Shown: one piece after another, positions 3,298-61,980 of the stretch
Numbering within the stretch: the first letter of the stretch is position 1
Layout of the letters: each line of letters starts with the position of its first letter
DNA from: Aequorivita marisscotiae
GTDB taxonomy: Bacteria > Bacteroidota > Bacteroidia > Flavobacteriales > Flavobacteriaceae
Direction of reading: 5' to 3'
Length of the DNA stretch: 64,000 nt
Assembly: GCF_029814825.1 (NCBI RefSeq)
Contig: NZ_CP122379.1
Span: forward strand, 1,860,001 to 1,924,000
Program-made: the position numbers and the translations under genes
The notes under the pieces: model-generated
The model's input: the letters and a program-made list of their open reading frames with translations, nothing else
Databases searched by the model: none
What the model was told of the DNA's origin: nothing

Positions 3298-3435
3298 AAT
3301 AATTGCTTTTTAAAATAATAGCGTGCAAGATAACAATACCCTATCAATTCTGGTAATTAAGCTATGTAAAGACTTCAAAAATTTGAAAATTTATTTAAAA
3401 TAGAAAACTTCACTTTTAAAATTCAGCTTCAGAAT

Positions 3436-3650
3436 CATTGTTGTCCGATAAAAGTAATGACTAACTCTGGAAAACCCCATATTATATGTAGTCCCTATGG
3501 GACTAGGAATTGACGGGGCTCTATTTTTTTACCCATATTTAATGCCTAACGGCATACTGCTCCAGCTGGGCAAAATATTGGTAATCAAGAGATCGCACCT
3601 AAACAAATGTCCCGTAGGGGAAAAACATGATTTTTAATCGGACAATACTG
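3436..3650 (+). mobile_element. MITE-like 215-bp element, copy A
   Basis: Non-coding element with imperfect terminal inverted repeats. The left end is CATTGTTGTCCGATAAAAG; the right end, read inward, is CAGTATTGTCCGATTAAAA. It is flanked by a 9-bp near-perfect direct repeat, CTTCAGAAT (3427-3435) and TTTCAGAAT (3651-3659), which looks like a target-site duplication. The interior has small palindromes (TAGTCCCTATGGGACTA, ATGCCTAACGGCAT). It is identical except for one base (T at 3498) to the inverted copy at 61567-61781. It carries no ORF, so it would need a transposase encoded elsewhere. It fills most of the gap between the S46 and GreA/B-like genes. Confidence 0.85.
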
Positions 3651-3697
3651 TTTCAGAATAGTTATAATCGTTTTTATAATGCGAATAGAACGTAAAT

Positions 3698-4201
3698 TTA
3701 TGTATATGAAATAGCTAAAATTTCGAGGGCTCTAGACTCGGTACCTAATTTAAAAGGCACAATTTCGCCAATTTTATGACCCGTTAAAGCCACCGCAATA
3801 GGTGCTACAAATGCAATTTTTCTATTTGCAATATTGGCTTCGTCTACGCCAACAATTTGAAAAGTTTGCGGCGAGGGAGATGTAGATATTTTATACGTTA
3901 CCGTGGCGCCAAATCGGACTTCGTCTTTTGGTTGGCTCGCAGGGTCTAGAATGCGGGCAGACGCAATCCGTTCGTTCAGTAAATCTAATTTTCCGTTTAT
4001 TACAGCTAATTCAATTCGGCGCTGTTGCTCGTTTACAGTTGTAAGTGTGGCGCGTTCGTCCTCTAAGTTTTTTCGTTCGCGCTGTAGCAATTCCATTCCG
4101 GTAGGTGTAACATAATTGGTAGCGCTTGTAGGTAAGGCCGCGCGTGGTGGAATAATAGGGGTCTCTTCCTGATCGCCCTCTTTTACAAAACCTCTGCTCA
4201 T
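3698..4201 (-). CDS. GreA/GreB-family transcription elongation factor
   Basis: 167-aa member of the Gre family, which enters the RNA polymerase secondary channel and stimulates cleavage of backtracked RNA. The N-terminus (MSRGFVKEGDQEE...PPRAALP) is the GreB-like form seen in Bacteroidota. Residues about 35-85 form the charged helical-hairpin (coiled-coil) region. Residues about 90-165 match the FKBP-like C-terminal domain, with the motif GHKIGEIVPFKL. Whether the acidic catalytic tip residues are conserved could not be established by eye, so anti-backtracking activity is inferred from family. It is monocistronic. Confidence 0.85.
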   Translation of the reverse strand: MSRGFVKEGDQEETPIIPPRAALPTSATNYVTPTGMELLQRERKNLEDERATLTTVNEQQRRIELAVINGKLDLLNERIASARILDPASQPKDEVRFGATVTYKISTSPSPQTFQIVGVDEANIANRKIAFVAPIAVALTGHKIGEIVPFKLGTESRALEILAISYT

Positions 4202-61453: not shown

Positions 61454-61566
61454 CCATTTCATGGAGTTAATTTTTTGGTGTGACCTTTAAAAATTACACA
61501 TGAAAATAATCTCCCGACTGCATAATATTTCTGAAATCATCGTGATAGAAAATATAGATTTTTAAT

Positions 61567-61781
61567 CAGTATTGTCCGATTAAAAATCATGTTTTTCCCC
61601 TACGGGACATTTGTTTAGGTGCGATCTCTTGATTACCAATATTTTGCCCAGCTGGAGCAGTATGCCGTTAGGCATTAAATATGGGTAAAAAAATAGAGCC
61701 CCGTCAATTCCTAGTCCCGTAGGGACTACATATAATATGGGGTTTTCCAGAGTTAGTCATTACTTTTATCGGACAACAATG
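61567..61781 (-). mobile_element. MITE-like 215-bp element, copy B
   Basis: Reverse-complement copy of 3436-3650 with 214 of 215 bases identical. On the plus strand it starts CAGTATTGTCCGATTAAAA and ends TTTTATCGGACAACAATG. A perfect 9-bp direct repeat ATTTTTAAT flanks it (61558-61566 and 61782-61790), which is strong evidence of insertion. It occupies the spacer between the K+ channel and AGCS symporter genes; the rest of 61454-61980 shows no gene. Confidence 0.92.
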
Positions 61782-61980
61782 ATTTTTAATGTGTGATTTA
61801 AAGAAAGTATATTTATCATTAAATCCTTGGAAATAGAGTTTTAAACTGATTGGAGAGTTAATAATTATATAAATATTAATAATACGTTAACAAATTTATG
61901 TGTATTTTTTTGAAATTGTAATATTTTTTAATCATCTTGCTTCGCTTTACTACAAAAGCGTTTCATCCTAAAAATATACT

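Follow-up and report, generated by a model that had tools for sequence, protein, structure and literature searches.

A MITE of Aequorivita marisscotiae that joins IS4-type ends to a structurally conserved four-hairpin core

What kind of element is the 215-bp sequence that occurs twice in one stretch of the Aequorivita marisscotiae chromosome, how did it come to be there, and what does it carry between its ends? The stretch, here called the window, spans 64,000 nucleotides (positions 1,860,001-1,924,000 of genome G000, a single contig of 3.45 Mb). An earlier note, made from the letters of the window, had described two copies differing by one base, with related inverted repeats at their ends and a different 9-bp direct repeat around each. 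The coordinates and the single difference have been verified; the ends are indeed an imperfect inverted pair (CATTGTTGTCCGATAAAA versus CAGTATTGTCCGATTAAA, the latter being the other end read inward), and the first copy lies between CTTCAGAAT and TTTCAGAAT, the second between perfect repeats. The copies, their terminal inverted repeats (TIRs) and their target-site duplications (TSDs) are as follows.

3436..3650, plus strand: MITE copy 1, 215 bp, placed from the sequence and the genome copies
61567..61781, minus strand: MITE copy 2, 215 bp, one base different from copy 1
3427..3435, no strand: left TSD of copy 1, CTTCAGAAT
3651..3659, no strand: right TSD of copy 1, TTTCAGAAT, one mismatch
61558..61566, no strand: left TSD of copy 2, ATTTTTAAT, as on the plus strand of the window
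61782..61790, no strand: right TSD of copy 2, ATTTTTAAT, as on the plus strand of the window
3436..3453, plus strand: left TIR, CATTGTTGTCCGATAAAA, identical to one end of the DUF4372 insertion sequence (IS) of G005
3633..3650, plus strand: right TIR, TTTAATCGGACAATACTG

The element is MITE-like, as had been held, in being 215 bp long, in possessing imperfect 18-bp TIRs, in lacking coding capacity (no ORF of at least 80 aa overlaps either window copy), and in occurring as multiple copies with common ends. Comparison with the complete genome recovers eight full-length copies at 95-100% identity, all with the same boundaries and with differing flanks, and a paired-end pattern at the length of the MITE finds eight genomic sites versus none for the reversed control pattern. 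Perfect 9-bp TSDs accompany four of the eight copies (ATTAAAAAT, AATAAGAAT, ATTAAATTT and ATTTTATTT, with the ends fixed by the pattern), three more agree at eight of nine positions, and the most divergent copy has none (5/9); that is, 8 or 9 of the 9 positions are identical in seven of the eight copies. In addition, the relative G025 possesses both flanks of copy 1 with the element absent, around one uninterrupted GATTTAGAAT-like target. Judged from these boundaries, flanks and mostly retained duplications, exactly the 215-bp unit has evidently transposed, which was the central claim made from the two window copies. All eight copies occupy intervals between long ORFs or border on one; in one of them (L004) a long ORF has its first ATG 24 bases within the element, and in another (L006) an ORF terminates directly before it.

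The source of the ends was traced through a scan for the pattern TATTGTCCGATTAAA, in which the matches listed led to an IS in L100 with an ORF that resembles a DUF4372 transposase by eye, ends like those of the MITE, and a perfect 9-bp TSD (1/1). Among 28 genomes of the genus, PF14294 (DUF4372) is present in three, G004, G005 and G024. The G005 IS is 1,386 bp long and encodes DUF4372 together with DDE_Tnp_1; its transposase fits the NCBIfam IS4 family model at 213.9 bits (cut-off 115) and contains YKNRWQIETMFKRLK, the Y-R-E-K signature. One end of this IS, CATTGTTGTCCGATAAAA, and the left end of the MITE are identical over all 18 bases; its other end, CAGTAGTGTCCGATAAA, agrees with the right end at 15 of 17 positions, with two differences by manual count. 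Perfect 9-bp TSDs flank all eight of the G005 copies checked, and outside the ends no resemblance between the MITE and the G005 IS was seen by eye. With one end matched in full and the 9-bp duplications perfect in both G005 and L100, descent of the MITE ends from a DUF4372-type IS is well supported, and we hold with high confidence that the element is a MITE with a DUF4372-type, IS4-family shell. The earlier guess of an IS4-type relationship, drawn from the length of the duplications, has thus found its counterpart in a congener IS that combines an IS4-family transposase with ends of the same kind and with TSDs of 9 bp.

The TSDs of the two elements also differ in one minor respect. Three of the MITE copies (L001, L003 and L005), or three of the seven recognisable pairs, carry one TSD mismatch each despite being 98-100% identical, versus none of eight in the G005 IS. 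A recombination swap between copies was entertained as the source of these mismatches and dropped, the two sides still agreeing at eight of nine positions.

The window had been reported to hold no matching transposase, and this extends to the entire genome: neither the window nor the remainder of G000 has a PF14294 match, DUF4372 being the only IS4-related domain searched. The element in G000 is therefore an orphan MITE. Near-full-length copies occur in five genomes of the genus (G000, G001, G008, G018 and G025), and there is no overlap between these and the three DUF4372 genomes among the 28, a comparison in which draft genomes can lose repeats and G000 is one contig; G004 has only partial matches to the element, at 70-88%. 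Present mobility in G000 is accordingly not supported, given the lack of a DUF4372 match and the separation of the two sets of genomes; the missing parent copy lowers the case for present mobility, not that for descent. Such a history recalls other IS-derived MITEs, such as MITECca01 of Cardinium, which is described in PMC9769881 as about 240 bp long with an IS982 parent. Like it, the present element is short, non-coding, found in several copies, and retains little beyond the ends of its parent; unlike it, the element has a parent type of the IS4 family with DUF4372, of which its genome has no match, and a conserved core of four hairpins.

That core, which the earlier note missed, is the unusual part of the element. 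It measures about 145 bp and comprises four REP-like hairpins, two of which are enclosed by a closing stem.

3489..3505, plus strand: hairpin 1, TAGTCCC TAT GGGACTA
3529..3540, plus strand: 5' arm of the closing stem, TTACCCATATTT
3542..3555, plus strand: hairpin 2, ATGCC TAAC GGCAT
3559..3571, plus strand: hairpin 3, imperfect, GCTCCAGCTGGGC
3573..3584, plus strand: 3' arm of the closing stem, AAATATTGGTAA
3608..3622, plus strand: hairpin 4, imperfect in this species, TGTCCCGTAGGGGAA

Folded as single-stranded DNA, the element of this genome gives z = -4.2. Its closing stem, TTACCCATATTT...AAATATTGGTAA, is of a type common across elements, CTACCnATAT...ATATnGGTAG. Hairpin 1 reads ATGTAGTCCC, and the motif common across genera is the CTAC..GTAG closing stem, so a GTAG (GT[AG]G) tag at the 5' foot is ambiguous.

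Congeners carry the element at 77-90% identity, with perfect TSDs in G001, G018 and one G025 copy and an 8/9 TSD in a second G025 copy; a third G025 copy has none, and by eye none is clear in G008. Beyond the genus, ends of this kind bound elements of 239-248 bp in Lutibacter (L105, L111), in Marinifilum (L106), in a Bacteroidetes (L125) and in G527 (L269). Their TSDs, likewise judged by eye, are perfect in L106, 8/9 in L111 and 8/9 in L125 once the end is shifted by one base; none was seen in L105 or L269. The hairpins start at 36/84/105/157 in L111, 39/91/111/161 in L105 and 41/93/114/165 in L269, and at about 29/80/96/146 on the other strand of the A. marisscotiae element (manual conversion). 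The same hairpin rule gives L106 a score of 1 and L125 a score of 2, the first spacer of L125 being longer. In all five of these elements and in that of A. marisscotiae, the orientation of the hairpins tracks the unequal ends (GATTAAA, GATAAAA).

Conservation of the pairing was assessed in alignment A2, built from ten elements with MAFFT (which is unaware of structure) and with the structure taken from L111 alone. The ten rows, which also make up A3, comprise the A. marisscotiae element, a single copy per congener for four congeners, and five elements whose ends are of the DUF4372 type; L037, L047, L049, the remaining copies from the genome itself and hairpin-free elements were left out of both. 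In A2, 85.3% of 326 cells pair versus 74.3% after shuffling, and 19 of 35 pairs show double changes. Double-change cells number 46 versus 15.4 +- 3.3 in shuffles, none of 500 of which reaches 46, with the proviso that the shuffles take no account of relatedness and that five of the ten rows come from the one genus. When partners are slid by one to three columns, at most seven such cells are left, and further pair types are no more numerous than in shuffles (370/500). Within the genus, covariation is not above shuffles (two pairs, 92/500) and counts neither for nor against. Across genera the core retains its base pairing and not its sequence, and it is very probably a conserved, folded DNA module.

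Pairing in RNA commonly passes through G-U steps. Here, cells changed on one side only number 5 versus 46 changed on both, and since nearly all changes are two-sided Watson-Crick replacements, pairing as DNA fits better than pairing as RNA. This bears on an alternative in which the core acts as an RNA or a transcription signal (terminator, mRNA stabiliser or insulator) that makes intergenic insertions harmless, its pairing being kept for that purpose. The location of the eight genome copies at or between the limits of long ORFs would suit such a role, as would the conserved pairing itself, and transcription of bacterial MITEs is said to be frequent, with an influence on the stability of mRNA (PMC3733652). 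However, no terminator-like site is found in 3300-3800, Rfam 15 gives no match, and the excess of two-sided changes speaks for DNA; we regard a role of this kind as unlikely.

How far the core extends was gauged with R1, a covariance model of it. At E <= 0.001, R1 has matches in 72 of the 395 genomes that represent this class, the present one included, in 45 of 197 genera, and it matches six of 28 TIR-scan loci unused in building the model (L064, L085, L118, L151, L165 and L173), the 28 having been chosen by eye from at least 120 TIR-pattern loci, with the contig ending soon past the TIR in several of those that do not match. An ordinary orphan MITE of an IS4-family IS, with hairpins captured at birth as unimportant filler, would account for the ends, the TSDs and the copy number without invoking the core, and hairpin-free MITEs with the same kind of ends do exist; yet filler would hardly be expected to keep its pairing across genera despite changed sequence or to return with the same layout in those 72 genomes, and we consider this explanation improbable. 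Thirty-six loci from outside the Bacteroidetes (between L060 and L136) also match TATTGTCCGATTAAA; none of the 36 has an R1 match at E <= 0.01, and these pattern matches are probably due to chance.

The loci with the best R1 match of other genomes, 29 in number, include none with DUF4372-type ends and none that contains a signature-bearing Y1 gene; two of them (L320 and L334) have two-mismatch end words on both sides and no TSD. Most of the R1 loci tested show no detectable TIR in an inverted-repeat search of their 110-bp flanks. From these two results it follows that the core often lies outside any visible shell. The same search flagged inverted repeats at five of the 29 (L316, L319, L322, L330 and L340) and at 13 of 38 further or repeated copies (40 were fetched, two had too little flank, and ten of the 38 duplicate one of the 29), or at 16 of 57 distinct copies under a lenient rule that makes some flags marginal. 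Exact end duplications are present in six of the flagged copies. Three of these, L322, L359 and L374, are bounded by 20-bp repeats that differ at one position at most, with ends of the form GGGTGTATGTCAAAATGCAC and with 8-bp TSDs (CTTAAAAC, GATTTGTT and CTCGCAAA); 8-bp TSDs and GGG ends are, we assume, reminiscent of IS1595-type elements. In the other three, L351, L369 and L371, the ends are of the GAGCCTGTTTAAATTT type and the TSDs span 3 bp (TAA or TTA) and are individually weak, a TNA duplication being presumably reminiscent of IS5-type elements. A further shell type, ACCCCTGTCAGGGTT, is present in G822, and yet another, whose TSD is not clear, in L360. Viral contigs, searched for autonomous parents of the GGGTGTA and GAGCCTG shells, yielded none. 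Conversely, DUF4372-type ends surround hairpin-free cores in L121, L090, L058, L193 and L194. Because other DDE-like shells also enclose the core, and shells of the present kind also enclose a hairpin-free one, we infer that shell and core are exchangeable modules, and the occurrence of same-layout cores within other transposon ends suggests that such mobile elements are assembled from interchangeable parts. As an observation apart, the hairpin-free elements in L121, L090, L193 and L194 (Aquimarina and others) have in common a second core type, AAGACCGCTTTGCT..., and are 56-60% alike mutually.

If the shell points to a DDE transposase, the hairpins point elsewhere. In the genome of A. marisscotiae, IS200-like Y1 genes form a tandem of three at 116-118 kb, with a fourth at 2,477 kb; a longer protein is encoded at 1,206 kb. 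The tandem genes (L204-L206, G000:C1:116037-118199) have equal Y1_Tnp scores and hairpins between and around them. They encode DHIH and YIANQEEHH, and the fourth encodes DHIH and YIQNQKEHH; the four carry the signature of Y1 subclass 1.2, assigned by motif alone, which is given as Y---Q--HH with DH[IV]H in the available portion of PMC6006769, where this subclass is listed without REPs. Against the IS200 model, a hand-typed Y1 sequence from this genome scores 73.1 bits (cut-off 55), and against REP_Tyr_transpos it scores 34.2 bits (cut-off 80), so the protein does not qualify as a REP-associated tyrosine transposase by this model.

REP-like hairpins also flank IS200-like Y1 genes, both in this genome and in its relatives. 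The Y1 loci counted were 14, from this genome and from others selected because a MITE of this sort or the parent IS is present in them. Each has one hairpin or more within 350 bp; together they hold 72 in the nearest 350 bp versus 15 in the outer flanks and 4.5 in shuffles. Left out of the count were L205 and L206 (in tandem beside L204), L242, L254 and L260 (exact signature not at the centre), and Y1 loci without the Y...Q..HH motif. Two of the 14 show no higher hairpin density close to the gene (L245, 5 versus 6; L248, 1 versus 1). R1 matches lie inside eight of 35 Y1 loci at E <= 0.01; in L249, L254 (which lacks the exact Y...Q..HH motif) and L255 the distance from the end of the match to the Y1 stop codon is 4-14 bp, and on the opposite side of the gene L255 bears a second match. 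At the three tandem Y1 genes of A. marisscotiae, R1 gives no full module.

The sequences of core and Y1 flanks can also be compared directly. In Marinifilum, the MITE core and the Y1 flanks of the same genome have 20 identical bases in common, and the longest match of the L111 core is 21 bases in the Y1 flanks of G327 versus 9 at the one Y1 locus compared from the genome of L111 itself. In a test of k-mer sharing between core and pooled Y1 flanks, with controls without the MITEs' own loci and 1000 shuffles, sharing exceeds that in shuffles for L106 (0/1000), L111 (4/1000) and L269 (1/1000), and weakly for L105 (29/1000); it is not above shuffles for the A. marisscotiae core (seven 11-mers versus 3.7, 148/1000) or for L125 (467/1000). 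G001 carries the MITE and has no Y1_Tnp match; the other eight of the nine genomes searched have some. On balance it is rather likely that the core is related to the hairpins of subclass-1.2 Y1 genes, and the enzymes of this subclass perhaps process it, a step on which we would place somewhat less than half of our belief.

The reading that we consider best, and hold to be probable, is that the element is a MITE with a shell moved by a DUF4372 IS4-family transposase and, as its core, a hairpin module with a link to Y1 (HUH) enzymes. The shell, with inverted repeats of about 18 bp, would be recognised in trans by the DDE transposase of a DUF4372-type IS, which would cut at the ends and bring about insertion at AT-rich sites with a 9-bp duplication; the core would serve as a single-stranded-DNA substrate of Y1 (HUH) enzymes, with the consequence that two unrelated transposases could act on the element. 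A different origin for this combination would be that the hairpins form an independent REP/BIME family which inserted several times into ready-made MITEs, the parts having merely met. It would agree with the REP-like arrays that lack MITE ends, known from this genome and G025, and with the absence of a detectable TIR at the majority of the R1 loci tested. Against it stands the likeness in hairpin spacing, and in orientation to the unequal ends, among the elements of the genus, L111, L105 and L269 (L125 being an exception in the length of its first spacer), because repeated random insertion would not yield such likeness; we think this origin doubtful. Beyond the best reading, one may tentatively imagine a four-hairpin module spread across the Bacteroidia, whose single-stranded DNA is handled by Y1 enzymes of subclass 1.2 and which is clothed in interchangeable coats from several unrelated DDE families. 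If this were true, these MITEs would be two-transposase composites, and REP-like sequences would spread by DDE transposition besides, or in place of, their own Y1 enzyme.

Several known systems resemble parts of this arrangement. The MITEs of Porphyromonas gingivalis (BrickBuilt, MITE239, MITE464 and MITE700) have IS5-family-like ends; BrickBuilt and MITE464 have tandem-repeat interiors, and a MITE within a MITE has been reported (PMC4596501). Common to them and the present element are a Bacteroidetes host and IS-type ends, with unusual interiors in BrickBuilt and MITE464; they differ in the family of the ends and, by description, in the tandem repeats of those two. REP, BIME and REPIN sequences with their RAYT (TnpA-REP) genes are similar in having short, opposed, mostly intergenic hairpins beside Y1 genes (PMC3733652, PMC6006769). 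In contrast to them, no GTAG tag is established 5' of the hairpin foot in A. marisscotiae, the Y1 protein agrees with the IS200 model and with the signature of subclass 1.2 rather than with RAYT, and the hairpins lie within DDE-type inverted repeats. TIRYT genes likewise tie Y1 enzymes to terminal inverted repeats, but there the repeats flank the Y1 gene itself and here only hairpins (PMC3733652). The shell is known in kind, and the exchangeable, structurally conserved core is the new part. No such element is described in the titles and abstract openings of the open-licence PMC papers listed for this subject, which is not proof of its being unpublished. A conserved core in exchangeable DDE-type ends offers a concrete, testable route by which REP-like hairpins may spread; flanking hairpins are now tied to a Y1 subclass for which the available text of PMC6006769 lists no REPs, and R1 defines a family to annotate, being without a match in Rfam 15.

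Hairpins of this kind are also found apart from both shells and Y1 genes. The pattern TACCNATATN6CCN4GG has 41 matches in the genome versus 2 for its reversed control, a partly circular count since the pattern was derived from the MITE and a Y1 locus already seen, such that the locations, not the totals, are informative: nine lie beside the tandem Y1 genes, MITE copies account for seven, and the other 25 fall within two hairpin arrays. In G025, contigs C111 and C114 (L053 and L054) carry pieces of the core in tandem, partly without MITE ends. The two TACC-tagged arrays of A. marisscotiae (L012 and L234) occupy G000:C1:2913.0-2915.8 kb and 3055.3-3056.4 kb with no Y1_Tnp match near, and the first of them adjoins a small helix-turn-helix gene that is HigA-like by eye.
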